DNA of 64,000 bases from Flavipsychrobacter sp. (GTDB lineage: Bacteria; Bacteroidota; Bacteroidia; Chitinophagales; Chitinophagaceae): the NCBI GenBank assembly GCA_016786615.1, contig JAEUVX010000014.1, forward strand, positions 1 through 64,000, written 5' to 3'. The notes under the pieces were generated by a model that made no database searches, was not told the DNA's origin, and saw only the letters and a program-made list of their open reading frames with translations. The number at the start of each line of letters is the position of its first letter. Within the stretch, counting starts at the first letter, position 1. Made by a program: the position numbers and the translations under genes. Shown one piece after another: positions 16,235 through 33,485 of this stretch.

Positions 16235-16602
16235 GGGGCCGACTGGTTTTGACAGCATAAGGCAGGATAAGTAAGCATGTCGTGCGTTGGATAATTAGCA
16301 CGTAAATCTGAATATTCAACTTTTGAATGGCGAATCTAACTTTGCCATGGCTGCCTAATTAAATTAGCGCAACCATTTTGGCCGCAGAAGGCTTTGGCCT
16401 GTTGACGCCCCTGCCGCCTAACTCAAACTTCAATGGGATAGTACCTGTATCGTTGCGCTGCGGGTATGAAACTTAAGCAACTAGGAAGGGTGTAGGTTTG
16501 TCCTGCTCCGGCACTGTTCCGAAATCCAATGCAGGAATAAACATGTAGAAAGCTTATTGGGCATATGTTTGGACGCGGGTTCGAATCCCGCCGGTTCCAC
16601 TC
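16235..16602 (+). ncRNA. ssrA: Transfer-messenger RNA (tmRNA)
   Basis: The 5' end GGGGCCG pairs with CGGTTCC near the 3' end to form the acceptor stem; the discriminator A is at 16599 and CCA is not encoded. The T arm GGGTTCGAATCCCG lies at 16577-16590. The tag reading frame is visible at 16329-16358 and ends in TAA; it reads GESNFAMAA, possibly with an N before it, resembling other Bacteroidota tags ending in A-hydrophobic-AA. tmRNA with SmpB rescues stalled ribosomes and marks the products for proteolysis. The natural 3' neighbour appears displaced: island repeats begin within a few bases of the acceptor stem. Confidence 0.93.
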
Positions 16603-16733
16603 CACAAAATTAAAAACCCCTGAAAGTCGCTACTGTAGCAGTTTTTCAGGGGTTCGACTTTCCCGTCGAGTTTTTATTGTTATTCATAATTGATTGATAG
16701 TTATTGCTTTAAGGGTTCGATTTCCCGTGGAGA
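16597..16733 (+). repeat. Island 'tail' repeat, copy A (abuts ssrA 3' end)
   Basis: It aligns almost without gaps to 26847-26984 (offset 10250) at about 80 % identity counted by eye. It contains a conserved hairpin AACCCCTGAA/TTCAGGGGTT with an inner GCTAC/GTAGC stem. It also holds two T-arm-like motifs starting GGTTCGA at 16651-16670 and 16714-16732. I read it as the left end of an element inserted at the 3' end of ssrA. Confidence 0.75.
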
Positions 16734-16800
16734 TACGAGGCTATCGACAAAAATGACTTAAATTATAAAGCCTAATTCATTTTAAACTCTTGTTTACAAG

Positions 16801-17718
16801 TCAATTAAATGACTGCCTGAATTCCAATGGGGAAATATTGGTTTTGCTTTTGAATAGTTTGCTGAACGATTGCGGGTGTTCAAAACCTAATTCATAAGCA
16901 ATTTCACTTACAGATAAATTGGTAGTAGATAATTTCTCCTTAGCTTTTTCAATCAGCTTACTGTGAATATGTTGCTGAGTGGTTTGTCCGGTTGTTGCTT
17001 TCAACAGGCTACCCAGATAATTGGGTGATATATGTAGTAAGCCTGCAATGTATTGAGCTGTAGGTAAACCACTATTTACAAGGTTGCTGCTGTTGAAACT
17101 GTCGGCAAGGATTTCCTCCAGCCTTTCAAGTATTTGATGGTTGCCTTTTTTTCTTGTTATGAATTGCCTTTGATAGAACCGCTCGCAATAATTGAGTAGT
17201 AACTCTATCTGGGCGATGATAATATTCTGGCTGAACTTATCGATGTTTGAATGGTATTCCCGTTGAATATTTTCGAATATTCCGATAATGACAGCTTCTT
17301 CTTTTTCTGAAAGGAATAGAGCTTCATTTACCGCATAACCAAAGAAGTCGTATTGTTTAACGTTCTTTGCCAACGGGGTATTCCACATAAAATCAGGATG
17401 AATAAGCAGTAAGAAACCACTTGGGCGTATTGCAGGCTTTTCTGTAGAAAGGTGTACCAGTTGTCCAGGAGATACGAAAGCCATCAAACCTTCGTCAAAA
17501 TCGTACTGTTGTTGTCCATACCGAAATTTCCCCTGTATATTCCGCTTTAGCCCTATGGAATAGAAATTCTGTAGCCAGCTTATTTCCTTTTCATCTGTTT
17601 GGTATTCCACAGCACCATAGTCTACCAGGCTCACCAACGGGTGTTCCGGTTTGGGTAGTCCGCCCATTTTGTGAAATTCAGTGACAGTATTAAAAGTGTA
17701 TACTTTTTTACTTTTCAT
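16801..17718 (-). CDS. AraC-family transcriptional regulator
   Basis: 305 residues. The C-terminal ~100 residues hold two helix-turn-helix units: YIAGLLHISPNYLGSLLKATTGQTTQQHIHSKLIEKAK and LSVSEIAYELGFEHPQSFSKLFKSKTNISPLEFRQ, the typical AraC signature. The N-terminal ~190 residues look like a cupin-type ligand domain. It lies downstream of, and on the same strand as, the SDR and DJ-1 genes, separated by a hairpin; it may control them, as is common for AraC/SDR neighbourhoods, but that is inference from position. Confidence 0.88.
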   Translation of the reverse strand: MKSKKVYTFNTVTEFHKMGGLPKPEHPLVSLVDYGAVEYQTDEKEISWLQNFYSIGLKRNIQGKFRYGQQQYDFDEGLMAFVSPGQLVHLSTEKPAIRPSGFLLLIHPDFMWNTPLAKNVKQYDFFGYAVNEALFLSEKEEAVIIGIFENIQREYHSNIDKFSQNIIIAQIELLLNYCERFYQRQFITRKKGNHQILERLEEILADSFNSSNLVNSGLPTAQYIAGLLHISPNYLGSLLKATTGQTTQQHIHSKLIEKAKEKLSTTNLSVSEIAYELGFEHPQSFSKLFKSKTNISPLEFRQSFN

Positions 17719-17860
17719 AATTAACTGTATTTAAATAACTACCTATAGTAAATTTAAAACATTTATCAATTGCAACCCGAACAAGGAATTGATGTGTTTT
17801 CGTCATGCTTAATAACTACTGTGGCTATAATAAACTGTTCTGCTCTTTACAGGTATTAAA

Positions 17861-17907
17861 AAATGGAATTCCAAACGGATATCATAATTCCTTTTGGAAT
17901 TCCATTT
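17861..17907. terminator. Long inverted repeat between DJ-1-like gene and araC-like gene
   Basis: 15-bp perfect arms at 17861-17875 and 17893-17907, each containing TGGAATTCCA, itself a palindrome. It lies just past the DJ-1 stop codon and upstream of the AraC gene. It could terminate the first gene, serve as an operator for the second, or both; there is no strong T-run. Confidence 0.5.
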
Positions 17908-17927
17908 GATTGATAGTCTGCGATACC

Positions 17928-18740
17928 CTATTTTTTTTTATTCAGTTCTTCAATAATGGCTTCGGCCATCGGGATGCTTGATGCCGGATTTTGACCACTT
18001 ATCAAGTTTCTGTCATGTACTATAAATGCGCCCCAGTTTTTATCGCCTCGTTGATAAACAGCACCACATTGTCTGAGCCTTGAAGCCAACAGCCACGGAG
18101 CGTTGCTGGCGGTACCAAACTCTATTTCTTCCTCATCGCTGAAAGATGTAAGCTTACGGCCTTTGAATAGCCAGTTGCCATTCTTGTCAACTGCACTGAG
18201 CAAGGCTGCCTGCCCGTGGCATACTGCACCTATTATTTTATTCGTTTTGTCAGCTTCAAATAGCAGCTTACCCATGTCTTTGTCCTTGTATAAGTCTTCA
18301 ACCGGTCCATGTCCACCAGGTATTATCACAGCATCATAGTATGTCATCTTTACTTTCGATAAAGTAAGCGGATGTTGCAACTGCTTTGACAAAGATTCAA
18401 GATTGGCTGTATAGATTGCAGCATTTGTGCCTACTACATCAGGGCTCAGACTTTTAGGGTCTGCTGTAGGTTTTTTGCCCGCAGGTGTAGCTAATTCGAC
18501 AGTGTAACCTGCCGCAATAAACTTCTTATGTACATCTATAAATTCTTCCGCCCAATAGCCGGAAGGGTATAGTGTGCCATCTGCACGCGTCCAGTTGCTG
18601 GCGGCTGATAATACAATCAGTATTTTTTTGTTGAGTGGTTCACCCGATGCTTTGCTGGTTGTTGTTTGTGCTGATAGGCTTGCAGAAGCTATCAGTATCA
18701 ATAGCAGTATGCCTGCGCTTTTGTTGATTATATTTTTCAT
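17928..18740 (-). CDS. Secreted DJ-1/PfpI (class I glutamine amidotransferase-like) protein
   Basis: 270 residues. A signal peptide (ILLLILIASASLSAQ) precedes a DJ-1/PfpI domain related to Hsp31/HchA. VIIPGGHGPVEDL and GAVCHGQAALL place the nucleophilic elbow at C174 with H175, and an upstream acidic residue lies in YWAEEF (E65/E66). Family members are chaperones, deglycases or glyoxalase III; a periplasmic version is less common and its substrate is unknown. It follows the SDR gene by 34 bp on the same strand, probably in one operon. Confidence 0.85.
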   Translation of the reverse strand: MKNIINKSAGILLLILIASASLSAQTTTSKASGEPLNKKILIVLSAASNWTRADGTLYPSGYWAEEFIDVHKKFIAAGYTVELATPAGKKPTADPKSLSPDVVGTNAAIYTANLESLSKQLQHPLTLSKVKMTYYDAVIIPGGHGPVEDLYKDKDMGKLLFEADKTNKIIGAVCHGQAALLSAVDKNGNWLFKGRKLTSFSDEEEIEFGTASNAPWLLASRLRQCGAVYQRGDKNWGAFIVHDRNLISGQNPASSIPMAEAIIEELNKKK

Positions 18741-18774
18741 TGCTAAACTTTTTTCTGGTTAATTGTATTGTTAG

Positions 18775-19611
18775 TTAGAAATCTGTTGAAAGGCTTAATG
18801 ATTCGTTGGCTGCTAAACTGTTTTGCAGTATTTCGATTTTGTTTTTAGCCATGCCGAAAGAATCGCTACCCATAAAGAAGTGGAGCGGCGGGTTACTGTT
18901 TTCGGCTAATTGAATAAATGCAAGTGCAGCTTTTTCTGGGTTGCCGGGTTGATTGCCTATGATTTGTGTGTCGTGGATTATTTCCAGTTCTCTGGCTTCT
19001 TTGTATGCCGCTATAGGGTTTTCAGCCAGGCGAAGAGAACCTTGCAACAGGAAGTTTGTTTTAAAATAGCCGGGATAAACAATCGTAGCTTTAACACCCA
19101 ATGATGCTGCTTCTGCCGCAAATGCTTCTGTAAGGCCGGCAACGGCAAACTTAGTTGCATTATAGATACCCCACCCAGGGAATGCACCTAAGAAACCAGC
19201 GATAGAAGAAATATTGATGAAATGACCTGATTGTTTGCTGCGGAAATGTGGCATGATACTCCTCATTACATTCAACAAGCCAAACACATTCGTGTCAAAA
19301 TTTCCACGTGCTTCCCTGTCGCTCAATTCTTCAATTGTACCCAATTGCCCAAAACCTGCATTGTTTACAACTACATCAATGCTTCCGAATACAGTTATTG
19401 CTTTTGTAATTGCATTTCTTACGCCTGCTTCATCAGTAATGTCCAATGCTAATGGCAGGAAGTTTTCTGAGATGCTAACTTCTTTTTCCAGGTTTTCAAC
19501 TGTCCTGGATGTTGCTGCTACTTTATAGCCAGCGTTCAATAATGCTTTTACTAAAGAAAGGCCTAATCCTTTAGAAGCTCCGGTTACAAACCATACTTTT
19601 TTTGTGTCCAT
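18775..19611 (-). CDS. Short-chain dehydrogenase/reductase
   Basis: 278 residues with the classical SDR pattern: TGASKGLG cofactor loop at residues 10-17, NNAGFG near 83, the catalytic serine in NISSIAG, and YNATK with Y150 and K154. The T-S-R after the second strand (AATSRT) suggests NADP(H) preference. The substrate is unknown. It is the first gene of a probable SDR - DJ-1 operon. A near-consensus -7 element (CATCTTTG, minus strand, 19645-19652) lies about 35 nt upstream of the ATG. Confidence 0.88.
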   Translation of the reverse strand: MDTKKVWFVTGASKGLGLSLVKALLNAGYKVAATSRTVENLEKEVSISENFLPLALDITDEAGVRNAITKAITVFGSIDVVVNNAGFGQLGTIEELSDREARGNFDTNVFGLLNVMRSIMPHFRSKQSGHFINISSIAGFLGAFPGWGIYNATKFAVAGLTEAFAAEAASLGVKATIVYPGYFKTNFLLQGSLRLAENPIAAYKEARELEIIHDTQIIGNQPGNPEKAALAFIQLAENSNPPLHFFMGSDSFGMAKNKIEILQNSLAANESLSLSTDF

Positions 19612-19895
19612 TGTTTTAAATTTTAATTGTTAATGATTACACTGCAAAGATGGTTTACACAGAAGCCGTAGAAATAATCGAATCAACTGTTGTTGTATCC
19701 AAAACAATGATTGTTTCTTATTGATGTGGGTAGTTGTTTCTGAGCTATGTGCAGAACTGTTACTACAAGGGCATGCTTCATACTTCCACAAACTATCCTC
19801 CTTTTTCTCTTTTTTTTGGTTTCTGCTGCTGCTGTTCGTTGGTTTGCATATACACAGTACTAGTATCATTAATAGGGAAGACCAAAATCAGAATT
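19612..19895. other. Divergent intergenic region SDR / exbB-like
   Basis: 284 bp. The near-consensus SDR promoter element CATCTTTG (minus strand, 19645-19652) is in it. An open frame runs through the right part into exbB but has cysteine- and phenylalanine-rich, unlikely coding content. No other gene is seen. Confidence 0.5.
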
Positions 19896-20726
19896 ATGGC
19901 AGACGTAAAAACAGCCGCAAAGCCGTCATCTCAAGCTGGCAAACCAAAGAATGCAAACAATTTTATGCTCAACCTGATCATCATGGTTGCATGTATCGCG
20001 ATAGGGCAAATTGTTTATCACGTAGTATTTGGTAGTGCCTCCAACTTTCTGGATGCCGAGAAACACAAGCCTAAGAACTTTATGGGTAACATGTATCTTG
20101 GTGGTGCAATCGTACCATTCCTGATTGCCACATTCTTGGTTATGCTGAGCTTTGTTGTTGAGCGTTTCATGACAATCTTCAAAGCAAACGGTAAAATGAA
20201 TGCCGGTGAATTTGTACGTAAAGTACAGTACCACCTGGCTAATGAAAATGTTGATGCTGCACTGGCTGAGTGTGATAAACAAGCAGGTAGCGTAGGTAAT
20301 GTAATGCGTGCCGGCCTGGTCAAGTATCGTGAGATGACAAACAATCACGAACTGGACACAGATCAGAAAGTACTGAGCATCCAAAAAGAAATAGAAGAAG
20401 CCACTGCACTGGAATTGCCGATGCTGGAGAAAAACCTGGTATTCCTGTCAACAATCGCATCAGTAGCAACGCTGTTGGGTCTGTTGGGTACGGTATTGGG
20501 TATGATTAAATCGTTCTCTGCGATGGGTACTGCAGGTGCGCCGGATTCAGCGGCACTGGCGGCTGGTATCTCTGAAGCCCTGTATAACACGGCACTGGGT
20601 ATCGGTACATCATTCTTCGCTATCATCGGTTATAACTTCTTTACTACTATCATTGATGGTATCATATTCGGTATCGACGAAAGCGGTTTCACACTGACAC
20701 AGAGCTTCGCTGCTAACTACAAGTAA
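19896..20726 (+). CDS. MotA/TolQ/ExbB-family proton channel protein
   Basis: 276 residues from the ATG at 19896, chosen because MADVKTAAKPSSQAGKPKNANNFML looks like a true cytoplasmic N-terminus whereas the upstream extension does not. There are three membrane segments: near residues 27-45, 70-90 and the paired C-terminal region TIASVATLLGLLGTVLGMIKSF ... GISEALYNTALGIGTSFFAIIGYNFF, the hallmark of ExbB/TolQ. It would form the stator energising TonB- or Tol-type systems. No exbD/tolR or tonB follows; the next gene is a kinase after 196 bp, so this copy is an orphan inside the island. Confidence 0.88.
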   Translation: MADVKTAAKPSSQAGKPKNANNFMLNLIIMVACIAIGQIVYHVVFGSASNFLDAEKHKPKNFMGNMYLGGAIVPFLIATFLVMLSFVVERFMTIFKANGKMNAGEFVRKVQYHLANENVDAALAECDKQAGSVGNVMRAGLVKYREMTNNHELDTDQKVLSIQKEIEEATALELPMLEKNLVFLSTIASVATLLGLLGTVLGMIKSFSAMGTAGAPDSAALAAGISEALYNTALGIGTSFFAIIGYNFFTTIIDGIIFGIDESGFTLTQSFAANYK

Positions 20727-20814
20727 CAAATAACGTACATGCAAACAATATTATGGTTAGACAGGGATATGTATAAGGGTGGATAGGATACTCAAAGCAA
20801 ACGGGGTAGAATAA

Positions 20815-20840
20815 AGTTGGAGATAGTCTTATCTCCAACT
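20815..20840 (+). terminator. Hairpin after exbB-like gene
   Basis: 10-bp perfect stem AGTTGGAGAT/ATCTCCAACT with a 6-nt loop. It lacks a clear T-run, so it may be a weak terminator or a transcript-stabilising hairpin. Confidence 0.45.
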
Positions 20841-20892
20841 CAACTATTAGCAGGCTATCGTGTTTTAGCATTATTCTAAGATGAAAGAGATA

Positions 20893-20900
20893 TACATTTG
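20893..20900 (+). promoter_or_regulatory. -7 element upstream of lytS-type kinase
   Basis: TACATTTG matches TAnnTTTG, 22 nt before the ATG at 20923. Confidence 0.45.
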
Positions 20901-20922
20901 ATAAAGTATTGACAACAGCATT

Positions 20923-21948
20923 ATGAAAATAAAAAGGTTCACCATTGCAACGCATGCATTAGTCTGGGTGTTGCTATTGGTTATTCCATATATTTCAACA
21001 GATCAGGTCTTTAATACAATAGACCCCGCATCTGATATGAAGTATCTGATACTGTGTGTTGTCTTGAGCTTTGTATTGCTGGTTATTTTCTATTTCAATT
21101 ATTTCTTCCTTATTCCAAGGTATTTATTTGCACAGCGGTACTGGCTTTATTCTTTCCTTTTATTGCTGGCTATTGTTGTTGTTTTTGTTGTTGTGGGGGT
21201 GCTGTTTTCAGTGTCCGGGTTCCCGCCAAGGGCATTGGTGCCTGCAAATCCGATAGTTGAAAAGATAATGCCTGTTATTATTATCAATGTTATTTCGCTA
21301 TGGTTACTGTCAATCGTATCATCCATCTTGTGGATGGTGTATAATAGGCTGAAGCAAACGGAAAGTGAAAAATTATCAGCACAAATTGCATCGTTGAAGT
21401 CACAAATCAATCCGCATTTTTTGTTCAATACCCTCAACAATATTTATGCTACTGCAATAGATACATCGCCCAAGGCAGCAGATATGGTAGATAAACTGTC
21501 TGAAATGATGCGGTACACTATGAAGGACATACAGCAGGACTTCGTATTGCTGGAAGATGAAATAAACTACGTCAGCAACTTTATAGAACTGCAGAAGATA
21601 CGGCTGGATAGGAGTGTGAAGCTGGAATGTAATATAATGGAAGAAGTACCGTCGCTGCGAATAGCACCGATGTTATTAATTCCATTTATAGAAAATGCTT
21701 TTAAACATGGTGTAAATTCTGAACAAAAGAGCCATATAAGAGTAGAAATAGCCGTTAATAAGACAGAACTGCAATTCAGCGTGGTGAATAATAAGGTGAA
21801 TGTGCAGCGCGATATTTCTGAAAGAAGTGGTTTGGGTATCGAGAATACAAAACACAGGCTGGAACTGATATACCCATCAAAACATTTGCTGGTAATAAAC
21901 GATACCGAGAAAGAGTTTTTCGTTTCTTTATACATCAACCTGCTATGA
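20923..21948 (+). CDS. LytS-type sensor histidine kinase
   Basis: 341 residues. Four membrane segments (about 9-25, 42-64, 73-97, 113-138) are followed by a His_kinase domain with the motif SQINPHFLFNTLNNI (H165), then an ATPase domain (LLIPFIENAFKHG, GLGIENTKHRLELIY). There is no separate extracellular sensor domain. Its stop overlaps the LytTR regulator start (ATGA), so the two form a coupled two-component system. The adjacent TonB receptor/DUF4249 pair is a plausible target. Confidence 0.9.
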   Translation: MKIKRFTIATHALVWVLLLVIPYISTDQVFNTIDPASDMKYLILCVVLSFVLLVIFYFNYFFLIPRYLFAQRYWLYSFLLLLAIVVVFVVVGVLFSVSGFPPRALVPANPIVEKIMPVIIINVISLWLLSIVSSILWMVYNRLKQTESEKLSAQIASLKSQINPHFLFNTLNNIYATAIDTSPKAADMVDKLSEMMRYTMKDIQQDFVLLEDEINYVSNFIELQKIRLDRSVKLECNIMEEVPSLRIAPMLLIPFIENAFKHGVNSEQKSHIRVEIAVNKTELQFSVVNNKVNVQRDISERSGLGIENTKHRLELIYPSKHLLVINDTEKEFFVSLYINLL

Positions 21949-22637
21949 TAAATGCTATTGCAATAGATGACGAACCGTTGGCACTGAGTGTCATACAATC
22001 ACTGTGCAACAAAACGGACAATATCAATCTGCAAAAGACATTTACACAGCCTACAGAAGCGCTTAAATACTTAAGAAAATTCCCTACAGACCTGATATTT
22101 TGCGATATACAAATGCCTGCTATGACGGGGATAAGCCTTGTGAAATCGCTGCAGCAAAACACGATGGTTATATTCACAACTGCATTCAGCGAATATGCGG
22201 TTGTGAGTTATGAGCTTAATGCCATAGACTATCTGCTCAAGCCTATTAATCAGAAGCGGTTTACACAGGCTATCAATAAGGCACAGGAGTACTATAGCTA
22301 TATAAACAAAGCAGAGCAGGTCGAGGATAAGTATATATTCGTTCGCGCAGATTTCAGCCTGGTGAAAATACCTATTGCAGATATTCTGTACATAGAAGGG
22401 CTGGCCGACTACATTAAAATCCACATCAAAGACCGTAAACCTGTTTTGGCAAGAATGCCAATGAAAGAGATGATTGATAAACTGCGCTCAGCAGATTTCA
22501 TCCGTGTACATCGCAGTTATATACTGCCGTTCAGTAAGATAGAGTCGGTGAGGGGTAATACTGTTTTTATAGGTGGTAAAGAATTTCCAATCGGCAGAAC
22601 GTATGTAGATGAGTTTTTCAGCCGCTATTCTTCCTGA
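21945..22637 (+). CDS. LytTR-family response regulator
   Basis: 230 residues. The receiver domain holds the acidic pocket IDDE, the phosphoacceptor aspartate D54 in IFCDIQMPAMTG, a conserved threonine in TTAFSEYAV and the lysine in YLLKPI. A C-terminal LytTR DNA-binding domain (IADILYIEGLADYIKIHI ... FIRVHRSYIL ... FPIGRTY) follows. It overlaps the kinase stop by 4 nt. LytTR proteins bind paired ~9-bp direct repeats; I did not identify such a pair with confidence upstream of 22794. Confidence 0.9.
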   Translation: MINAIAIDDEPLALSVIQSLCNKTDNINLQKTFTQPTEALKYLRKFPTDLIFCDIQMPAMTGISLVKSLQQNTMVIFTTAFSEYAVVSYELNAIDYLLKPINQKRFTQAINKAQEYYSYINKAEQVEDKYIFVRADFSLVKIPIADILYIEGLADYIKIHIKDRKPVLARMPMKEMIDKLRSADFIRVHRSYILPFSKIESVRGNTVFIGGKEFPIGRTYVDEFFSRYSS

Positions 22638-22793
22638 TTCTAATCTCCTGTTTCCCCATTCTTCGCTTAATTCTTTCACTTCTTCTCAATTTTTTTTTGG
22701 AAGATTATTTAGCGTCCATATTTGTACCAGTATTCATTTTTAATGGTTCCCAAATGAAATAGGAGTATCTACTCAACCATTCTTTTTTACATC

Positions 22794-25094
22794 ATGCATA
22801 AGAAAATTGCGTTAATCAATCTATTGCTCTTGCTGAGCACAAAACTGCTATTTGCACAATCGTACACAGTCAGTGGTACAGTAAAACAGAAGTCATCCGG
22901 CGAAACACTGATGGGTGTCACCGTTTCTATTGTTGGAAAGTCGTCTGTTGGTATAGTGACGAATGAGTACGGGTTTTACTCACTCTCTTTGCCTAAAGGC
23001 GACTATACATTGCGTTTTTCGTACGTAGGTTATAAGCAGGAATTGGTACGCCTGAACCTTGATGATAATAAGGTTGTAAATGCGAACATGATTGATGAAA
23101 CTAGCCTTAAGGAAGTAGTGGTAAGTTCTAAGAAAGACAATGATAACCTTACCAAAGCTACCATGGGTACAGAGGTGCTTGATATCAAAGCTGCTTCGAA
23201 GATTCCGGTTGTATTCGGTGAAAAGGACTTAGTGAAAACAATACAGTTGATGCCAGGTGTGAAATCGAGCGGAGAAGGTAGTAATGGTTTTTCTGTTCGC
23301 GGCGGTGCTACAGATCAGAATCTGATACTGCTGGACGAAGCGCCTGTTTACAATGCTTCTCACCTGTTAGGGATATTCAGTACGTTCAATAGCGATGCAT
23401 TGAAGGATGCTACCATCATTAAGGGGAATAGCCCATCGCAATACGGCGGCCGACTTTCATCTGTATTGGATGTGAAAATGAAAGAAGGTAACAATAAGGA
23501 ATATCATGTTAGTGGTGGATTAGGATTAATAAGCAGCAGGGTGACAATAGAAGGACCTATACAGAAAGAAAAGTCATCTTTTATGATTTCCGGTAGAAGA
23601 ACGTACGCAGATTTGATTGCAAGCCTTTCTTCAGATTTTAAGGATATAAAATTGTATTTCTATGATTTGAATGCAAAAGCTAATCTTGCAATTAACAGCA
23701 AGAATAAACTATATTTTTCAGGCTATTTCGGGAAGGATGTGTTGGGGGTTTCTAAGACCTTTGGCAGCAATTGGGGTAATGTTACAGGTACGTTAAGATG
23801 GAATAGTGTTGTTAGCAGTAAGCTGTTTTCAAATACATCCTTTATATACAGCAATTATGATTTTAATGTAAACTTCACTACTGATGGTTCCGTAATTAAT
23901 ACAAACTCCAATATCAAGGATTTGAATTTGAAACAGGATTTCACATATTTTCTGAATTCAAATAATACTATGCGTATTGGCTTTAATATAATACATCATA
24001 CTATTACGCCTAGTACAACTACAGGTACTGGTATTGTAAATACGAAAAAAAGTCGCAAAGGATTGGAAAATGCAATCTATGTAAACAATTCCTACAAAGC
24101 TTATGATAAGCTAAGCATTGACTATGGGTTACGTTTTTCGTTCTACAATGTGCTTGGTGGTGATGTTTACAATGTTTATCAGAATAATCAGCTTGTACAA
24201 TCTATTAAATTAGATGAAGGAAAATTTGGCAAGACGTACTATAATCTTGAACCTAGGTTGTCTATGAATTATAGGCTTAGTAATAATTCAAGTATCAAGG
24301 CAGGGTATGCAAGGAATACACAAAGCCTGCATCTGATGAGTAATTCCACCGGTGGAAGCCCGACAGATCAGTGGATTGGCAATAGTTATAATATTAAACC
24401 GGAGGTTGCAGATCAGGTTAGTATTGGCTATAGTAGAAATTTTAAGGATAATGTATTTGAATTGAATTCTGAAGTATACTATAAAGCTATGCAAAATCAG
24501 ATAGACTATAGGGATGGTACTGACATCAATACTACGCCTGATATAGAAAGCGAACTGCTATATGGTAAAGGTAGAGCATACGGTGTTGAGGTAATATTTA
24601 AGAAGAAAACTGGAAAACTCACAGGCTGGATAGGGTATACACTTTCTAAAACAGAAAGACAGATTAATGGCATAAATGATGGTAAATGGTATAATGCAAA
24701 GCAAGATCGTACACATGACTTGTCGGTAGTCGGTATTTACAGTCTTACTTCAAGATGGACATTGTCTGGTGCATTTGTTTATACAACTGGCAATGCAGTT
24801 ACCTTCCCGACGGGAAAATATACGTTGAATAATATGACGTTATATCAGTATGGTAATCGAAATGCTAATAGAATGCCAGCTACACACAGATTGGATATCA
24901 GCGCTACGTACGAAAAGCCATCGAAAAAAAGATTTCAGAGTTCTTGGACTATTGGATTGTATAATGCTTATGGACGTAGTAATCCGTACAGTGTGACTTT
25001 CAGAGAAAGTAAGTCAGATCCTAATAAAATAGAAGCAGTACAGACATCGTTGTTTCAATGGGTTCCTAGTGTAACATACAATTTCAAATTTTAA
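22794..25094 (+). CDS. TonB-dependent receptor with carboxypeptidase-regulatory-like N-terminal domain
   Basis: 766 residues. After a signal peptide (LLLLLSTKLLFAQ), residues ~25-105 form a CarboxypepD_reg-like beta-sandwich (VSGTVKQKSSGETLMGVTV ... YTLRFSYVGYKQ). The plug domain follows (VKTIQLMPGVKSSGEGSNGFSVRGGATDQNLILLDEAPVYN), then a 22-strand-type barrel ending in an aromatic-rich VPSVTYNFKF. It imports a large or scarce ligand across the outer membrane with TonB energy; the ligand is unknown. It is followed 12 bp later by a DUF4249 lipoprotein, a recurring Bacteroidota pair. Confidence 0.9.
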   Translation: MHKKIALINLLLLLSTKLLFAQSYTVSGTVKQKSSGETLMGVTVSIVGKSSVGIVTNEYGFYSLSLPKGDYTLRFSYVGYKQELVRLNLDDNKVVNANMIDETSLKEVVVSSKKDNDNLTKATMGTEVLDIKAASKIPVVFGEKDLVKTIQLMPGVKSSGEGSNGFSVRGGATDQNLILLDEAPVYNASHLLGIFSTFNSDALKDATIIKGNSPSQYGGRLSSVLDVKMKEGNNKEYHVSGGLGLISSRVTIEGPIQKEKSSFMISGRRTYADLIASLSSDFKDIKLYFYDLNAKANLAINSKNKLYFSGYFGKDVLGVSKTFGSNWGNVTGTLRWNSVVSSKLFSNTSFIYSNYDFNVNFTTDGSVINTNSNIKDLNLKQDFTYFLNSNNTMRIGFNIIHHTITPSTTTGTGIVNTKKSRKGLENAIYVNNSYKAYDKLSIDYGLRFSFYNVLGGDVYNVYQNNQLVQSIKLDEGKFGKTYYNLEPRLSMNYRLSNNSSIKAGYARNTQSLHLMSNSTGGSPTDQWIGNSYNIKPEVADQVSIGYSRNFKDNVFELNSEVYYKAMQNQIDYRDGTDINTTPDIESELLYGKGRAYGVEVIFKKKTGKLTGWIGYTLSKTERQINGINDGKWYNAKQDRTHDLSVVGIYSLTSRWTLSGAFVYTTGNAVTFPTGKYTLNNMTLYQYGNRNANRMPATHRLDISATYEKPSKKRFQSSWTIGLYNAYGRSNPYSVTFRESKSDPNKIEAVQTSLFQWVPSVTYNFKF

Positions 25095-26850: not shown

Positions 26851-26984
26851 TCTACAAAATCATCAACCCCTGAAAGTCGCTACAGTAGCGGTTCTTCAGG
26901 GGTTCGATATTCCCGTTAAGTTTTTATCATTATCTATGATCTATTGAAAGTCATTGTTTTCAAGGGTTCGACTTCCCGTAGGCA
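26847..26984 (+). repeat. Island 'tail' repeat, copy B
   Basis: Second copy of the sequence that abuts ssrA (16597-16733). The CCCCTGAA/TTCAGGGG hairpin and two GGTTCGA...TTCCCGT motifs (26901-26920, 26965-26982) are conserved. It marks the left end of the second element. Confidence 0.75.
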
Positions 26985-27112
26985 TTATTCTATATTGTAT
27001 TAATAGCAAAAAATATTAGTACTTAATCGCAACTAATGATTGTGTTGAGCTATAGCTAAACTTTTCGAGTTATTGACGACCAATAACTCATAGCATTTGA
27101 ATTATTGGGATG

Positions 27113-27859
27113 TTACATTTCTGTTTTGAACAAGTCTAAAAAATCTTTCTTCTTTCTTTTTGATATATCAATGTTAGACCCGTTGGTCATTGTTACATAT
27201 CCACCATCTCCACGATGATAATGCTTTACATAAGACAGGTTGATAATATTAGAGTGATGTGTTCTGAAAAATTGATGCTTGGGTAGCAAGTATTCATAAT
27301 CTTTTAATGGTTTTGAACTAAGCACTGTGCACTTGTCATTACAAAAGATTTGAGTATAACTTCCTTTGGCTGTCAAGTATAAAATACTGTTAATGGGAAC
27401 AAATTCCAAGCCATCATTTACTGGTATTGCTAAGCTTGACGGTTGATGTTTGATATTGTTACTGATTGTGCTCGATTGAGTTTCTGAAGGTTTCTTTTCT
27501 TGAATACGTTTCGCAGCTTTCGTTACAGCTTGTTGCAACTCTAAAATATTCAATGGCTTGAGCAGGTAGTCTGCAGCATTATTTTTTATGGCTTTGATTG
27601 CATACTGCTCGTATGCAGTGGTAAATATTATTTCAAAAGTGTTGTTATATCCATTTTTCAGGACATCGAATCCATTGCCGTCAGGCATTGCAATGTCAAG
27701 AAACAGCAATTCAACATTTGTAGATGATAGTATTTTTTTTGCTTCAGTTACGTTAGATGCCTCTGCTATCAGTTCTATGTCTTTACAATATCTTGTTAAT
27801 AGAGTTTTCAGTATATCACGGCCTTTTGCTTCGTCTTCAACGATTACAGTTTTTATCAT
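27113..27859 (-). CDS. LytTR-family response regulator
   Basis: 248 residues. The receiver domain shows VEDE, phosphoacceptor D55 in LLFLDIAMPDGNG, TTAYEQYAI and YLLKPL. A variable linker (residues ~120-145) leads to a LytTR DNA-binding domain (VPINSILYLTAKGSYTQIFC ... FFRTHHSNIINLSYVKHY). It starts 14 bp after the propeller kinase stop on the same strand, so the two form a two-component operon in the second island. Confidence 0.9.
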   Translation of the reverse strand: MIKTVIVEDEAKGRDILKTLLTRYCKDIELIAEASNVTEAKKILSSTNVELLFLDIAMPDGNGFDVLKNGYNNTFEIIFTTAYEQYAIKAIKNNAADYLLKPLNILELQQAVTKAAKRIQEKKPSETQSSTISNNIKHQPSSLAIPVNDGLEFVPINSILYLTAKGSYTQIFCNDKCTVLSSKPLKDYEYLLPKHQFFRTHHSNIINLSYVKHYHRGDGGYVTMTNGSNIDISKRKKKDFLDLFKTEM

Positions 27860-27873
27860 GGCTAAGAATAATT

Positions 27874-30800
27874 TTAGTTAGTCTTAGGGCTTATTGGTAT
27901 AGTTATAGTAACGGTTGTTCCTGTATCTGGTGCTATTTTATCAAGTGTCGTAATGGTAATATTCTGGTCATTGATATAATTGAAGGTTTTAACTCTGTCA
28001 TTGATTAGTTCCATGCCTCTAGACACATGCTCAGGGTTTCGAGTAGCATTTATTATTGCTGCTTGTTGTCTACCGATACCATTATCGTCAACCACACAAA
28101 CTAAAGTTAGTTCATTATGATTATTTGAAACGATGCTGAATGTAATTTTTAATAGCCCTTTAATATTCGTTTCTGAAAAGCCGTGCTTTATTGAGTTTTC
28201 AACAAATGGTTGAAGCAGCATAGATGGAATGAGTATGTCGTTTGTGTCAATGTGTTGGGGTTGTGTTATGATATATTCAAACCGATCTTCGAAACGTAAT
28301 TTTTCTAAAGAAAGATACAGTCTGAGCATCTCAATTTCGGCATGTAATTGTATATACTTATTCTTCGAAGACTCAAGAAATAGACGCATGAGCCTGGCAA
28401 ATTTTGATAAATAGTCATTGGCTGCAATTTCATTATTATGAAGAATGTAGTGTTGTATTGAGTTGATAGTATTGAAAATGAAGTGAGGATTCATTTGTGA
28501 TTGCAATGCATTGAGTTCTAAAGCAGCTATTTTTTTATTTATTTCATTTTTATGTTTTTCTCTGTTGATTATTCTTTTTATCCGTGTGTAAACTATGATT
28601 GTAATTGTAATGAGTAGTATAAATAGGATTGCGATATAAAAAAATGGCTCTTGCCAGAAAGCTGGTATAACAAACACAGACAGCGTTGCATCACATATAT
28701 TTGATTTGAAACCATCTTTACTAGCCTGTATGTACAGATAGTATTTGCCTGGGGGCAAATTAGTATAGCTTATGGAAGATTGCCTTTCTGGTGGATTATT
28801 CCACTTTTTATCAAAGCCTATTAGTTTGTATCGGTATAAATAGTTTTGAGCATTTTTGTAATCCAGTATAGAAAAGCCAGCGTTGAAAAAGTTTCCATCC
28901 CATTTAAGTTCAATACATTTTTTATTGTTGTATTCCCTTAAGTTATCTGTCCCCGCTACGGTTAGTGAAGTAATTGCAACAGGCATACTTGTAATATCGC
29001 GGGAAGGGATAGAAGTTGGTAAAAAACTAATCATTCCCGATTTACTTCCAAAGAATAACTCACCGTTATTATCTGCTGCTGCACACTTAAAGTTATAATC
29101 GTCACTTATTGTCCCGTCGTTCTCTTTATATAGAGTATAGTTATTGTTATTCAAACTATACTTAAATAGTCCTTCAACAGTACTTATCCAAACATCTCCG
29201 TTAGCTATTGGCATTATGGCAGAAATCATATTATTGGGTAGGTTATTGTGATGATACACATGCTGCCTGTTATCAGAAATCCTGAATACCCCATAACCGG
29301 TGGTGCCTATCCATAAATTATGATGTACATCTTCCTTTATATCCCATACATTGATATTGTCATCGTCTAATAAGTATTTTTTTCTATATTGTATTTCAGA
29401 AGGGCTTGTATTAATAATTTCGAACAGACCGTCATTGGTACCTATCCAAATAGTATTGCGATGATCTTTATATATGTTCCAAACACAGTTATTAGTGGTA
29501 TTCTTATCTGTAGATATCTTATACTGAAATAGCCTTCTGCTAGAACGCTCATAGATGTATAATCCTGAGCTATGCGTGCCAATCCATATATTGTCGTTGT
29601 CCTCCAATAGACTCCACGCCATATTGAAGCTGCTGGAGAATATATGTTTTTGATATGGTTCAAACCGTTTTTTTGCCATGTTTAATATGAAGACACCTTT
29701 TTCTCCTGCAGCCAACATGCTTCCATTTTTTAGTGTTATCAGTGCATTAGTTGTGTATTCACTTGTCAATCTGCGGTCTGGCAATAATAAAGGATATGAG
29801 CTATGAAAAAAGTGTTCTTTGGCGCCGGCATCATATCTTAGCATGTTAATATATCCGGCTTTAGTACCTACCCATATTTCATTGTGTTTGTTTGCATGAA
29901 TTGCACGTATATAATTGTGCGTTAATTTTCTTGATGTATTGTTTTGGCTGTATTTTTTAAAGTAGTATTTCCCTCTGTTTATTTTATATAGCCCAGAATT
30001 AGTACCTGCCCAAATTAGTCCTGTATTATCTTCAATAAGGCAATTAATAATTTCACTTTTATTATATTGACTGTTGTCGCTTATTTTAAAACTACTTTTC
30101 TCAATACCGGTATTAGTATAGTTAACAATAGTAATACCGTCAGTATAATAGAATCCCGAGCCTATAGCAGTATTAATATGGTGATATACATGGCCACGGG
30201 CTGTATGTTTTACACCTATTTCATTTATAATTTTCCTGCTTTTAATATCTATTAAAAAGCTGGTATTACCGGTAATAACAGCTAAATGATTTCCACTAAT
30301 AGCACAGGATATTATTGTTGTATATTTAATATTGTCTTTCAAAAATGGCTTGATGATATTATTGGTGACATCGTAAAAGTATATTCCTAAATCGTTCGCA
30401 AATAAGAGTGTGTCTGCACCGGCATCGTGCATGAAAAATACGGGTCTGGATACTTTTTTACAGATTGAAAAATGTCCGTTTTTCAATATCCCAATACGCC
30501 CATCTGCATCACTTATCCATATACGCGACTTGTTATCCTGTACTATGCATTTGATTTGTCTGAATGGAGTAGAGGATGACGTACAGTAAATAGTAAACTG
30601 TTGCTTTTTTCTGTCATAACAACTGATAGCTCCGCCTCTTGATCCTAACCAAACATTATTATCAGTGCCTTCGTAAATAACATCTACTGCATTTTGCCAG
30701 TCACCATTTATCTTTCCAAATATCCCCTTATATGTAACGAAACTATTGCCATTATGCACAGCAAGGCCTTGAAAAGTGCCAACCCATAAAAAGCCTTTAC

Positions 30801-30948
30801 TATCCTGAAGGATCGTTTGCACAATGTTATGAGGAAGGCCATTTCGCGTTGTTATGAGGTCATAGTTTTCTGAAAACTGTTGTGCATATAAACTTACGGA
30901 TGTGAAAATGCTTATAACGAATAGAATTAGTGAGAGTATTGTTTTCAT
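27874..30948 (-). CDS. Two-component-regulator-propeller sensor histidine kinase (LytS-type output)
   Basis: 1024 residues. A signal peptide (LFVISIFTSVSLYAQ) is followed by about 14 Reg_prop beta-propeller repeats (DSKGFLWVGTFQGL, NVWLGSRGG, LIWAGTNSGLYK, TIWIGTNDGLFE, NLWIGTTGYGVF), a Y_Y_Y domain near 690-770, one membrane helix near 775-795 and a LytS-type kinase domain with NPHFIFNTINSIQHYIL. The ATPase motif LLQPFVENSIKHG follows. The periplasmic propellers probably sense an oligosaccharide or another polymer breakdown product, as in related hybrid systems; the ligand is unknown. Unlike hybrid kinases it has no fused receiver; its regulator is the next gene. Confidence 0.9.
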   Translation of the reverse strand: MKTILSLILFVISIFTSVSLYAQQFSENYDLITTRNGLPHNIVQTILQDSKGFLWVGTFQGLAVHNGNSFVTYKGIFGKINGDWQNAVDVIYEGTDNNVWLGSRGGAISCYDRKKQQFTIYCTSSSTPFRQIKCIVQDNKSRIWISDADGRIGILKNGHFSICKKVSRPVFFMHDAGADTLLFANDLGIYFYDVTNNIIKPFLKDNIKYTTIISCAISGNHLAVITGNTSFLIDIKSRKIINEIGVKHTARGHVYHHINTAIGSGFYYTDGITIVNYTNTGIEKSSFKISDNSQYNKSEIINCLIEDNTGLIWAGTNSGLYKINRGKYYFKKYSQNNTSRKLTHNYIRAIHANKHNEIWVGTKAGYINMLRYDAGAKEHFFHSSYPLLLPDRRLTSEYTTNALITLKNGSMLAAGEKGVFILNMAKKRFEPYQKHIFSSSFNMAWSLLEDNDNIWIGTHSSGLYIYERSSRRLFQYKISTDKNTTNNCVWNIYKDHRNTIWIGTNDGLFEIINTSPSEIQYRKKYLLDDDNINVWDIKEDVHHNLWIGTTGYGVFRISDNRQHVYHHNNLPNNMISAIMPIANGDVWISTVEGLFKYSLNNNNYTLYKENDGTISDDYNFKCAAADNNGELFFGSKSGMISFLPTSIPSRDITSMPVAITSLTVAGTDNLREYNNKKCIELKWDGNFFNAGFSILDYKNAQNYLYRYKLIGFDKKWNNPPERQSSISYTNLPPGKYYLYIQASKDGFKSNICDATLSVFVIPAFWQEPFFYIAILFILLITITIIVYTRIKRIINREKHKNEINKKIAALELNALQSQMNPHFIFNTINSIQHYILHNNEIAANDYLSKFARLMRLFLESSKNKYIQLHAEIEMLRLYLSLEKLRFEDRFEYIITQPQHIDTNDILIPSMLLQPFVENSIKHGFSETNIKGLLKITFSIVSNNHNELTLVCVVDDNGIGRQQAAIINATRNPEHVSRGMELINDRVKTFNYINDQNITITTLDKIAPDTGTTVTITIPISPKTN

Positions 30949-31023
30949 GGCTTACAACCGTAAGTTCAGTAATTATATATTCACTTCAAAATCCCCCATT
31001 TAAGCATTTATAGGTAAAAGAAA

Positions 31024-31048
31024 ACGACACGGTTCAATACCGTGTCGT
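31024..31048 (-). terminator. Terminator-like hairpin downstream of the T9SS remnant
   Basis: 10-bp perfect stem ACGACACGGT/ACCGTGTCGT with a 5-nt loop. On the minus strand it is followed by TTTTCTTTT. Confidence 0.75.
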
Positions 31049-31066
31049 CATTTGGGAGGGAGGCAA

Positions 31067-31216
31067 TTATTTACTTACGATCATTCTCTTAGTTGCTATT
31101 TCTTTGCCACCAATGATGAGACTGTATAGGTACAAACCTACTGCCATCTCTGCTGCAGATACAGAAACATTCCCTTCAGTACCTTGTATTGTTACGTTTT
31201 TTATTTTTACAACCAT
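31067..31216 (-). pseudogene. Fragment of a T9SS type A sorting domain
   Basis: 49 codons plus stop. The translation (VSVSAAEMAVGLYLYSLIIG, then KEIATKRMIVSK) is the last half of a typical T9SS C-terminal domain, with the GxYxYxL and xxKRMIVxK ends. No upstream coding part exists: the frame closes four codons before the ATG and a terminator (31229-31261) separates it from the next gene. It is therefore a remnant of a lost surface protein, or a 3' fragment brought in by recombination. Confidence 0.75.
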
Positions 31217-31228
31217 CTGATTCACTCA

Positions 31229-31261
31229 AAATAAAAGCCCCGCATTACAGGGCTTTTATTT
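31229..31261 (-). terminator. Terminator of the T9SS protein gene at 31298
   Basis: 12-bp stem AAATAAAAGCCC/GGGCTTTTATTT with a 9-nt loop, immediately downstream of the minus-strand gene. Confidence 0.75.
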
Positions 31262-31297
31262 ATGGATACAACAGTTCTGATAGCTAGTGGTTACTTG

Positions 31298-32818
31298 CTA
31301 TTTAAGCGAAACCTTTTTCGTAATGACTTTGTTTTTATAGTGGATATTGACCAAGTAGATTCCGTGAGGATTTTGCAACAGGCTAATGGTCATTTTTGCA
31401 GCGGTGGGCCTGATGTCTTCAGTTATCACTTTCCCGCTTATATCTGTTATAGAATAGGTGACATCATTTAAATTCAAGCCGGAAATGGTAAGTGTAAATG
31501 TTTCTGTAGTGGGATTAGGGTATATCATAATCGCATCTTCCAAATTGATATTTTTAGTACCCAATTCTTCCATAATTGGAGCAGGCTGATCACATTCTTC
31601 ATATATAACCCTCCTGTAACTTTTATGCGTTGGACAGCCATTACTGTCTAAACAAGTATAAATGTATTGTTCATCCTGATTTGGACACACAGTAACAGTA
31701 GAATTAGTGCCGAGTGAGTTAGACCACATAGCAGTCATCGTTCCGGAAGGACAAGCTGATGCTGCAATTACTATACAAGAGTCGCAGTGCAATGTATCGG
31801 TTTCGGTATCAACAGACGGACTGGCTATTGTAATATTTACCCGGACCTCGAAATTGACACATCCTTCACAGGTTCTGCATTTAGTAATGTAAGTGGCGTT
31901 TACGCCAGGGGTTACAATATTACTTACCGGCACACCGTTCAGCGTCCAGGTATCATAGTAGCCATCGCAGATATGAGTATTTATGAGGTCGAGGTCTACT
32001 GATTCCTGGCAGCCAATAGTATCGTACAATACATAGACAGGGGGTGCTGATGCTGGTTCGTAATATACCAGGCTTACGCTGTCAATAAAAGCAATCTTTT
32101 TAGATGTCTCAGCCCCGGCACTATCTATTCTGAATTCTATCCTGTCGAAAGTATCAATATCAGTTGCTGTAATAGAGATTGTGTCAGAGTACTTAATCCA
32201 ATTACCTTTATTGATGATGGTAGGAGTAGTATATATACGTTTGTTCCTTGTGCTATCGGTACTTTTCCTTAAGGCCACCTCTACATAATTGTTGGGGTGT
32301 ATATTGTAATTAATATAACCAAAATAACCTGTGGAGCATGTGCCTTGCCAATAGCCGTCCGGAGCCTTTGCCCAAAAGGTTAGTATATAATTCCCCGGAC
32401 ATTCAAACTTATGAAGTTGCCCTAAAATGCTTTCACCTTCATTAAAAGCATATACTCCTGTATATCCGCCCATGATAAGTGCAAATCTTTCGCCATGTTT
32501 GGGAAGCGTACCTGCCCCGGTATTTGATGCGTAAAATAAATTAGGAAAATAGCCATAGCCGCATACGCCCGCAGGTATATTGTAATCCAAAAGGTCTGGT
32601 GTACCACCATATCTCGTACCGGGAGTATAGCCGGTATTATAAGTGAAGCCTGGCTTCCAATATGTAGCATGTCCATTTCCGATGCCGTTAGAACCTGTAG
32701 GGTGTGTTCCTTGTTCGAAACTGGGATTTAATATCAGATTTTTTTGTCCTGATACCAGATGTGCCTGCAAACAAATGAGGCTACATATAAGAACTTTGAT
32801 TAGTGTGGATTTCTTCAT
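31298..32818 (-). CDS. T9SS type A sorting-domain surface protein
   Basis: 506 residues. A signal peptide (LICSLICLQAHLVSGQ) precedes NLILNPSFEQGTHP, the typical start of a carbohydrate-binding-like jelly-roll domain that extends to about residue 255. A cysteine-rich middle follows (CQESVDL, CDGYYDTW, CRTCEGC, CDSCIV), then a T9SS sorting domain (IMIYPNPTTETFTLTISGL ... GIYLVNIHYKNKVITKKVSLK). It is predicted to be secreted or surface-attached; the ligand is unknown. It is the last protein gene of the second island. Confidence 0.85.
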   Translation of the reverse strand: MKKSTLIKVLICSLICLQAHLVSGQKNLILNPSFEQGTHPTGSNGIGNGHATYWKPGFTYNTGYTPGTRYGGTPDLLDYNIPAGVCGYGYFPNLFYASNTGAGTLPKHGERFALIMGGYTGVYAFNEGESILGQLHKFECPGNYILTFWAKAPDGYWQGTCSTGYFGYINYNIHPNNYVEVALRKSTDSTRNKRIYTTPTIINKGNWIKYSDTISITATDIDTFDRIEFRIDSAGAETSKKIAFIDSVSLVYYEPASAPPVYVLYDTIGCQESVDLDLINTHICDGYYDTWTLNGVPVSNIVTPGVNATYITKCRTCEGCVNFEVRVNITIASPSVDTETDTLHCDSCIVIAASACPSGTMTAMWSNSLGTNSTVTVCPNQDEQYIYTCLDSNGCPTHKSYRRVIYEECDQPAPIMEELGTKNINLEDAIMIYPNPTTETFTLTISGLNLNDVTYSITDISGKVITEDIRPTAAKMTISLLQNPHGIYLVNIHYKNKVITKKVSLK

Positions 32819-32910
32819 AAGTAATCGTGATTTGTATTAGAGAAATTGTTTTAATAAAGTTCTCCTTATTTGTGGGTTAACTAAAGTGGTAACTAACAAG
32901 TGGGCAGAAA

Positions 32911-32928
32911 ATGACCATAAGTGGTCAT
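32911..32928. promoter_or_regulatory. Perfect 18-bp palindrome upstream of T9SS gene
   Basis: ATGACCATAAGTGGTCAT: 7-bp arms around TAAG, about 93 nt upstream of the minus-strand gene start at 32818. The form suggests a dimeric regulator's operator; the regulator is unknown. Confidence 0.35.
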
Positions 32929-33273
32929 AGATACTGGTTGTGTGGGCGATAGGTTTACTCATAAATTGATTGACGTACTCCCTAAAATGATTGGGATTCA
33001 CTTATGAGCCGAAAATATCCTATACCTATAGACAGGGAAAAAATGTCTAAAGAAATGAAAAGGATAATGTTAGATTTATTATAACAATGGCAAGTGAATT
33101 GGAGAGACTAGGCGATTAGATATTTAGTTAGTGACGTAAACGCGCTAAGGATTTGGTTTGATAAATGACTAGTCGTATATAAAGTATGCACGACGATTAG
33201 ATAGAGTAGCAATAACATATGCATAAAAAAATTGTGGAGATATGATGGCTCCGCTATTTTATATCTAACCGGC

Positions 33274-33439
33274 TAATATTATTAATAATTGCCAGTTTTC
33301 TAAAATATTATATTTTGAACGAGTTTGAAAAATTGCGTCAATGTAAACCACTAAGAGTAAAGCCTACACTGTCTTTCAGTGGGTATACGCGCCAGAAAAA
33401 ATTCTTCAGTTGGTTCGACACTCGTTCCGTAGGCTCCAC
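33274..33439 (+). repeat. Island 'head' repeat, copy C
   Basis: Second copy of 26685-26850. It ends in a GGTTCGA...CTCCAC motif (33412-33439) and is followed by AGAAAAAG and the terminator facing groEL. This looks like the right boundary of the inserted region. Confidence 0.75.
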
Positions 33440-33448
33440 AGAAAAAGT

Positions 33449-33485
33449 AAAAAGGCTGCAAGAAATCTTGCAGCCTTTTTCTTTT
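33449..33485. terminator. Bidirectional terminator next to groEL (probable original ssrA terminator)
   Basis: 15-bp perfect stem (33449-33463 / 33466-33480) with A-rich and T-rich flanks. It ends groEL on the minus strand. Before island insertion it would have stood directly behind ssrA on the plus strand. Confidence 0.85.

Follow-up and report, generated by a model that had tools for sequence, protein, structure and literature searches.

Two recombinase-less segments between ssrA and groEL in a Flavipsychrobacter genome are probable cargo cassettes of a serine-recombinase island system

Results

The window analyzed here is a stretch of 64,000 nucleotides from the Flavipsychrobacter sp. genome G000 (2.96 Mb, 15 contigs, 91% complete). 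Between ssrA, the gene of transfer-messenger RNA (tmRNA), and groEL it contains two tandem units, which are probably cargo cassettes of an island system based on a large serine recombinase (LSR). A full-length Rfam match (RF00023, 148.2 bits, model 1–374) places ssrA, the integration target, at 16235–16602 on the plus strand; ARAGORN did not report it. The right flank, groEL, lies at 33502–35142 on the minus strand and has homologues in 13 of 14 same-genus relatives. Read on the plus strand, cassette 1 measures 10,250 bp from junction to junction (16601–26850) and cassette 2 measures 6,589 bp (26851–33439).

Comparison of the window with itself by BLAST paired 16596–16728 with 26846–26979 (82.8% identity, 134 columns, E 1e-31) and 26687–26850 with 33276–33439 (86.6%, 164 columns, E 1e-50), far above chance; among the matches listed, the remaining direct repeats had E values of 5e-5 or worse. 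The offsets of the two pairs, 10,250 and 6,589, equal the lengths of the two units exactly. An earlier sequence-only reading had proposed from these repeats that two tandem elements lie at the 3' end of ssrA. This proposal is supported by the variable ssrA–groEL distance in relatives described below. Its repeats stand as described, but its boundary has to be shifted: the junction follows base 16600 (ssrA ...GGTTCCAC|), the left end proper starts at 16601, and the tmRNA model ends at 16602. A 5-bp core, TCCAC (16596–16600 in ssrA, plus strand), is common to both sides of the junction.

We refer to the right-end repeat as H and to the left end of the window units as T. The T of cassette 1 (16601–16740, plus strand) contains a hairpin, CCCCTGAAA..TTTCAGGGG, and a second GGTTCGA..CCCG motif; it is 82.8% identical to 26846–26979 and scores 127 bits against a profile that includes T itself. 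That of cassette 2 (26851–26985, plus strand) was found by self-BLAST and by profile match. In both units, a second GGTTCGA..CCCGT motif occurs in direct orientation approximately 110–120 bp inside the cassette. At the right end of cassette 1, H1 (26687–26850, plus strand) terminates in ..GGTTCGACACTCGTTCCGTAGACTCCAC at the junction, as self-BLAST and the aligned H ends indicate. Directly ahead of it is an inverted repeat forming a hairpin, AAAGGAGCC..GGCTCCTTT (26638–26674), which is also present in many copies from relatives. Further upstream are iterons, (T)TGCTACAA, with a period of about 11 bp (26457–26487, plus strand), which are part of a shared right-end module. H2, the right end of cassette 2 (33276–33439, plus strand), has no iteron block ahead of it. 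Read in reverse, both H copies encode an LSR-type C-terminal tail with a stop codon, 32 residues in H1 (VESTERVSNQLKNFFWRIYPLKDSVGLTLSGL; 26752–26850, minus strand) and 33 in H2 (33338–33439, minus strand). The terminator hairpin ahead of groEL (33440–33485) is probably the displaced right half of the target.

The cargo of both units, as judged by Pfam and NCBIfam, comprises regulators, two-component systems, a TonB receptor and a protein sorted by the type IX secretion system (T9SS). In cassette 1, minus-strand genes encode an AraC-type regulator (16801–17718, PF12833), a DJ-1/PfpI family protein (17928–18740, PF01965) and a short-chain dehydrogenase (18775–19611, PF00106). They are followed on the plus strand by genes for a MotA/TolQ/ExbB-type proton channel protein (19896–20726, PF01618), a histidine kinase (20923–21948, PF06580), a LytTR response regulator (21945–22637, PF00072 and PF04397), a TonB-dependent receptor (22794–25094, PF00593 and PF07715) and a DUF4249 protein (25107–25898, PF14054), and by a small open reading frame (ORF) of unassigned family with 0 Pfam matches (25968–26399). 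Cassette 2 encodes, all on the minus strand, a LytTR response regulator (27113–27859, PF00072 and PF04397), a two-component sensor combining a Reg_prop propeller with a histidine kinase (27874–30948, PF07494, PF07495 and PF06580) and a secreted protein with a T9SS sorting domain (31298–32818, PF18962).

The two segments appear to lack a recombinase, as the sequence-only reading had stated. No integrase, resolvase or transposase family was seen by Pfam in their 12 main ORFs or by NCBIfam in the 9 of these examined, and whole-genome searches of G000 returned 11 matches to PF00589 and 4 to PF00239, none of them within the segments. The search for transposase families covered only the window ORFs and a few cassette proteins.

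To trace the repeats in relatives, a 186-base query spanning the H–T junction was run against G000 and 58 further genomes, 14 of the same genus and 44 outside it. None of the 44 reached E 0.01 (best match, E 0.013), and we rejected chance or scattered repeats as an explanation on this result. Within the genus, several copies were found in each of G002, G004, G006 and G007, and one decayed copy in G008. H and T recur at arrays in same-genus relatives only. We tabulated 22 units lying between successive junctions, both of which were read; they range from 374 to 18,395 bp, total 204 kb and include 5 from G000, and units at G002_C10 and G007_C2 stand outside the table. These cassettes agree in their right end but not in their left ends, and they carry no recombinase, none of those tabulated containing a PF00589 or PF00239 protein. 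All 28 H ends read terminate in a YCCAC core, which in ssrA is the last part of GGTTCGAATCCCGCCGGTTCCAC, and the junction follows immediately after it. Outside these 28 are truncated copies (G002_C13 597397, G006_C42 141677, G007_C2 71160 and G007_C1b 510396) and the decayed H of G008, which ends in CTAC.

Where the start of an array is readable, it is ssrA, tRNA-Val, tRNA-Arg or a tRNA-like 3' fragment. Insertion thus occurs at tRNA and tmRNA 3' ends and leaves the gene intact, as seen in the full-length ssrA of the window and in the ssrA, tRNA-Val and tRNA-Arg genes that are left neighbours elsewhere. The sequence-only reading had named repeats scattered genome-wide at sites unrelated to ssrA as grounds for refutation. 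Such sites formally exist at tRNA-Val and tRNA-Arg, yet they fit tRNA-type 3' ends as the target class. Its expectation of size variation was borne out in the H-bearing genomes in which ssrA faces groEL, with distances of 16.9 kb in G000, 14.2 kb in G007, 84.8 kb in G004 and 122.6 kb in G006. The H-free G013 has the same arrangement with 36.8 kb between the two genes, and therefore the locus varies without H too. In G002, ssrA and groEL are on different contigs, and in the other relatives they are differently placed or on different contigs. Different cargo between the same genes was found in G007, where two tandem units, the second ending in a decayed H, showed no alignment to the window cargo above the 1.5-kb cut-off. 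Among the 13 genomes in which the ssrA 3' flank was read, T directly follows ssrA in G000 and G007, a weak T-like match (E 2e-4) lies behind ssrA in G009, and the empty site that the sequence-only reading predicted, ssrA followed directly by the 33440–33485 sequence, was not seen.

Three further loci were noted. A second array in G000 (contig C6, 165066–193730; L029, L030) lies inside a larger stretch bounded by tRNA-Ser(GGA) and by what is, as judged by eye, a displaced tRNA-Ser 3' fragment; a 266-residue ORF beside the tRNA resembles the N-terminal part of an integrase. This is perhaps an island within an island. In G006 (C1, 252211–237157; L103, L034), the cassette array starts directly behind a 45-bp piece of tRNA-Val left by a tyrosine-integrase island at tRNA-Val(TAC). 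In G002, the end of contig C5 and the start of C15 (L107, L186) both lie in the same displaced ssrA 3' end, and the order across the join is probably ssrA, tyrosine-integrase island, LSR element, metal cassette and nos cassette.

An all-against-all comparison of the units yielded alignments that begin and end on junctions, and several alignment breaks coincide with junctions. The clearest case is a nitrous-oxide-reductase (nos) unit, whose copies in G002 (C15, 96375–110613) and G006 (C1, 222918–237156) differ by 15 mismatches and no indel over 14,239 bp. Core DNA of the two genomes is 87.8% identical over 8.1 kb and 91.7% over 4.7 kb, and the cassette therefore moved recently between two species. 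Its products include NosZ (TIGR04246, 945 bits), NosD and an Rrf2-type regulator; further nos and respiratory genes were named by reading. To its left, the unit borders on an H in G002 and, in G006, on a 3' fragment of tRNA-Val. The unit ahead of it in G002 encodes a CusA/CzcA efflux protein and is 98.6–98.9% identical to the G006 copy in two stretches. A third nos copy, in G007, is 94.9% identical and keeps the right end; its first 248 bp differ. Elsewhere in G000 and G008, there are stretches with 68–79% identity to parts of the initial 5.6 kb of the nos unit. The sequence-only reading had judged the insertions not recent, which holds for the window pair with its repeat identities of 83–87% but not for the family as a whole, in which a cassette that is 99.9% identical has moved.

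A motif, TTGCTACAA, spaced at about 11 bp, precedes 14 of the 28 right ends, helpers and cassettes taken together, in the form of TGCTACA clusters; of 25 such clusters, 16 are found in the 450 bp leading up to an H junction, and another 4 belong to the helpers and are close to the LSR. The search for this motif led us to a motif-bearing element at ssrA in G004 and G006 that carries, adjoining ssrA, the gene of a serine recombinase of about 550 residues. This LSR has the Resolvase, Recombinase and zinc-ribbon domains of phage-type large serine integrases (PF00239, PF07508 and PF13408), and its relatives in the PDB include the A118 and TP901-1 integrases. Six elements of 60–79 kb have the LSR gene as their left end and H as their right end, and we regard them as putative helpers. 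From the ssrA junction to H, the elements of G006 and G004 measure 69,599 and 60,284 bp. Those of G007 (64,543 bp) and G008 (75,832 bp, with a 1.2-kb inverted match in the variable part) were compared whole with that of G006, and the ends only were read for the two of G002 (63,720 and 79,267 bp). The G004, G007 and G008 elements are collinear with that of G006 over approximately the left 54 kb and at the right end, which for G004 means the right 400 bp; the middle stretch is variable. Near its right end, the G004 helper has variable cargo that includes a SMODS nucleotidyltransferase of the anti-phage signalling type (L048:1719–2507).

The left neighbours of the six LSR elements are ssrA (two), a displaced ssrA 3' end, tRNA-Val (two) and tRNA-Arg; the tRNAs were named by reading, and tRNA-Val in G006 was confirmed by ARAGORN. 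At 77% identity or more, the LSR has six copies, two in G002 and one each in G004, G006, G007 and G008, so that five H-bearing genomes out of six are represented. The nine H-free genomes of the genus have no LSR at this threshold (best, 52%). No second PF00239 protein was found beside these LSRs among the PF00239 matches in six genomes.

Of the 47 ORFs of the G006 element, 29 are present in all of G004, G007 and G008. Recognized helper proteins are a DUF5906 protein, a strawberry-notch-type helicase, a Sak4-like ATPase, a transglycosylase and a transglutaminase-like protein. Capsid, terminase, relaxase and type IV secretion system families were not seen by Pfam in 29 of the 47 ORFs, the LSR excluded and one scanned in part, and PHROGs showed no capsid or terminase in 9 of those scanned. 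One protein of the G006 element matches a baseplate-hub/transglycosylase PHROG. The DUF5906 protein matches 3 phage records at 26–30%, and there was otherwise no match to a phage or viral contig. One helper protein has relatives at 36–41% on Persicobacter plasmids; plasmid CP012856 is matched by 2 of the 47 ORFs, this one and a marginal stretch of another.

The joined element ends read TTCCGTAGA-CTCCAC-TCTACGGGAA in G004, G006 and G007, an imperfect dyad around the core, and TTCGGTAGA-GTCTAC-TCTACAGGAA in G008. In G008, the tRNA side and the H side both have CTAC as their core, which a requirement for matching cores would predict. Just ahead of the junction, ssrA and H have in common GGTTCGA and the 5-bp core. 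An equivalent of the empty site that was missing at ssrA–groEL was found at tRNA-Val: in five of the six H-free genomes read (G005, G009, G010, G011 and G013, not G003), tRNA-Val is followed by TTCCAC|AGAATAA and a terminator. The occupied site in G002 has the form tRNA-Val|element...H|AGAATAA and a terminator. At the far side of the first two units of this array, H|AGAATAAAAACCTCTAAAGTGCTTTACTG is close to the native AGAATAAAACCTCTTAAGTGCTTTACTG of G013. The sequence to the right of that H is therefore the target's displaced half. Such a displaced half would explain the terminator after H.

In all six elements, the LSR frame stays open for 24–126 nt beyond the left junction, reading the target in antisense (in G002_C15 the frame beyond the junction runs to the contig end). 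Across joined ends, it would instead continue into H. The reverse reading of H has a stop at codon 33/34 in 21 of 28 copies, and the tail VESTERVSNQLKDFFWRIYPLKDSVGL.. is conserved, cassettes included. Integration would thus swap the LSR C-terminus. In the first 96 nt of H, pairwise differences number 1584 at third codon positions against 934 and 705 at the others, and nt 103–162 are without such bias. The ratio of nonsynonymous to synonymous rates (dN/dS) of the tail is 0.29, and 0.31 for cassettes alone, over 25 H copies (23 distinct; 3 decayed of the 28 left out). Of 60 column shuffles (mean 0.78, minimum 0.39), none was as low as 0.29. The H-encoded tail therefore looks to be under coding constraint. 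In a search of 59 genomes, the tail was present in the six H genomes, and one 39% match with a stop occurred in G019. In G008, the tail lies within an open frame of 553 codons, and a second LSR, 27% identical, is listed just beside it with an equally long frame; we infer that the two are one frame. Four LSRs were read from other Bacteroidota genera; three have terminal tails of the G[FV]EP type, which resemble antisense tRNA, and the fourth has none.

Discussion

Our comparison suggests that the two window segments are probably cargo cassettes, that they belong to an island system based on a serine recombinase with tRNA and tmRNA 3' ends as insertion sites, and that an LSR helper would move them in trans. 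The exact units, the matching cores, the target class, the helper with the same end and the recent transfer all support this reading. In the proposed mechanism, the LSR would act on the cassettes in trans. It would excise and insert them between H|left-end junctions and a tRNA-type or H-type core, and every newly inserted unit would extend the array. The H-coded tail may, relative to the target-coded one, alter LSR activity. No intact LSR of the H-linked type was seen in G000, and its two cassettes therefore look stranded.

Several observations weigh against this interpretation. All that G000 has of this LSR is a fragment of some 139 codons, 63% identical (C12:17791–18207), so that a helper for the window cassettes is hypothetical. 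No circular intermediate was seen, and the case is one of sequence comparison. Cassette left ends are not one conserved sequence, so that the helpers alone have the full attP dyad; the loss of the first 248 bp in the G007 nos copy makes the left end inexact, and half of the right ends, H2 included, are without iterons. The evidence for constraint on the tail comes from 32 codons. Seven of the 28 H copies, that of the G006 helper included (codon 55), have no stop at codon 33/34, and one of the 21 copies that do is decayed.

The main rival for the window's own cassettes is accretion, which we consider unlikely. According to this explanation, cassettes are excised and carried only with an adjacent helper, or are swapped when H repeats recombine homologously, and they stay in place once the helper is lost. 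The helper adjoins the tRNA or tmRNA end at all six of its sites, with the cassettes, if any, behind it, as accretion would also give, and H repeats of 164 bp, within a common right end of up to about 400 bp, could recombine. For Dehalococcoides islands without an integration module, such a process is proposed in PMC3146451. The nos cassette speaks against it: its left junction falls on an identical base whether the neighbour is H, as in G002, or a tRNA-Val fragment, as in G006, and these two neighbours share nothing but GGTTCGA and the core. Homologous recombination would not produce this left junction, and in the G006 array no helper lies beside the cassette.

Far less probable is transfer in trans by a tyrosine integrase encoded elsewhere in the genome. 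We clustered 45 such proteins from the H genomes, G008 included. Two families follow the distribution of H to some extent, family 1 being present in 5/5 H-rich and 2/10 other same-genus genomes (E 1e-50) and family 2 in 4/5 and 1/10 (E 1e-30). However, the surroundings of both families are their own. Eight of ten family 1 copies (L156–L165) have an upstream tRNA fragment cut at the anticodon loop, as judged by eye (ARAGORN calls no tRNA in these fragments), and most have other direct repeats, TGTTGTACC, before the gene; family 2 has its own repeated flanks. Searches for H and T at the loci of both families gave nothing better than E 0.045. By contrast, the LSR element ends in H.

A further reading, in which H would be the gene of a small RNA carrying its own terminator and the repeats would be paralogous RNA genes, not element ends, is scarcely credible and was rejected: a hairpin-like sequence stands, by eye, behind each H with a readable right neighbour, but none of 22 predicted pairs showed a two-sided change in 13 sequences, and thus no covariation, the window H has no Rfam match at gathering scores, and the units between H copies move as blocks.

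With the serine-recombinase cassette system as the preferred reading, we tentatively put forward a broader design, conceding that the balance is somewhat against it, in which arrays of whole-operon cassettes are built on a split serine recombinase gene. Each cassette would end in the 3' end of an LSR gene, and integration would trade the LSR tail for one from the antisense strand of the target tRNA, acting as a direction switch. A cassette upstream of an LSR element would return the native tail (compare the 553-codon frame of G008), and new cargo would be captured when host DNA behind the tRNA terminator comes to stand ahead of an H. The design may be widespread, given the antisense-tRNA-like LSR tails in other Bacteroidota genera.

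The proposed cassette system would account for recombinase-less islands with exact ends at tRNA-type genes and names the probable enzyme. A nitrous-oxide-reductase cassette that encodes neither integrase nor resolvase has moved between species, and island finders that require an integrase inside the island would miss such cassettes.

The system can be compared with several known ones. Staphylococcal cassette chromosomes (SCC/SCCmec) use serine recombinases, insert at the 3' end of a housekeeping gene and form tandem composites, and some cassettes have no recombinase. In these respects they resemble the present elements. SCC uses Ccr proteins at rlmH; the two differ in target, which here is a tRNA or tmRNA gene. 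The integrase of integrons is a tyrosine recombinase, and integron cassettes usually hold one gene. The present system differs in its serine recombinase and in its units, mostly of 3–18 kb with several genes, and no PF00589 match lies inside the arrays. The likeness to integrons and to clusters of attC sites lacking integron-integrases (CALIN), as far as the consulted part of PMC11389934 describes them, consists in cassette arrays that combine a conserved site at one end with variation at the other, and in integrase-less arrays served in trans. Tycheposons, in the excerpts used of PMC10872708 and PMC11389934, are likewise cargo elements beside tRNA genes with nitrogen-related cargo; they are described with a tyrosine recombinase, unlike the LSR here.

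In the literature searched, which is no proof that nothing else is in print, the architecture was matched only by the ssrA-specific islands of Dehalococcoides, that is, the vcrABC islands (McMurdie et al. 2011, PMC3146451). That paper describes tandem units downstream of ssrA. Their left edge holds a serine recombinase of 540 residues, the frame of which runs over attL without meeting a stop codon within the island. Many of the islands (15 of 31) lack an integration module, and the respiratory cargo is far more alike than that module. All of these have counterparts here; the LSR frame overlaps attL in all six LSR elements of the relatives, G000 having no such LSR. The paper also reports a 20-bp ssrA direct repeat with the T-loop as insertion point, a six-gene module that includes a second, small serine recombinase, and one target. 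In contrast, our elements have a 5-bp core with insertion after the acceptor end, no second PF00239 protein beside the LSR, and several targets, together with a 164-bp H end coding a recombinase tail, a helper of 60–79 kb and Bacteroidota hosts. The authors suggest that the recombinase is perhaps complete only in a circle or beside another island (PMC3146451), and a tail encoded by the partner end makes this older speculation directly testable. The Dehalococcoides ssrA islands are thus the closest known system, and because the repeat, the insertion point, the second recombinase and the single target differ, the present system is a variant rather than a member of that group.

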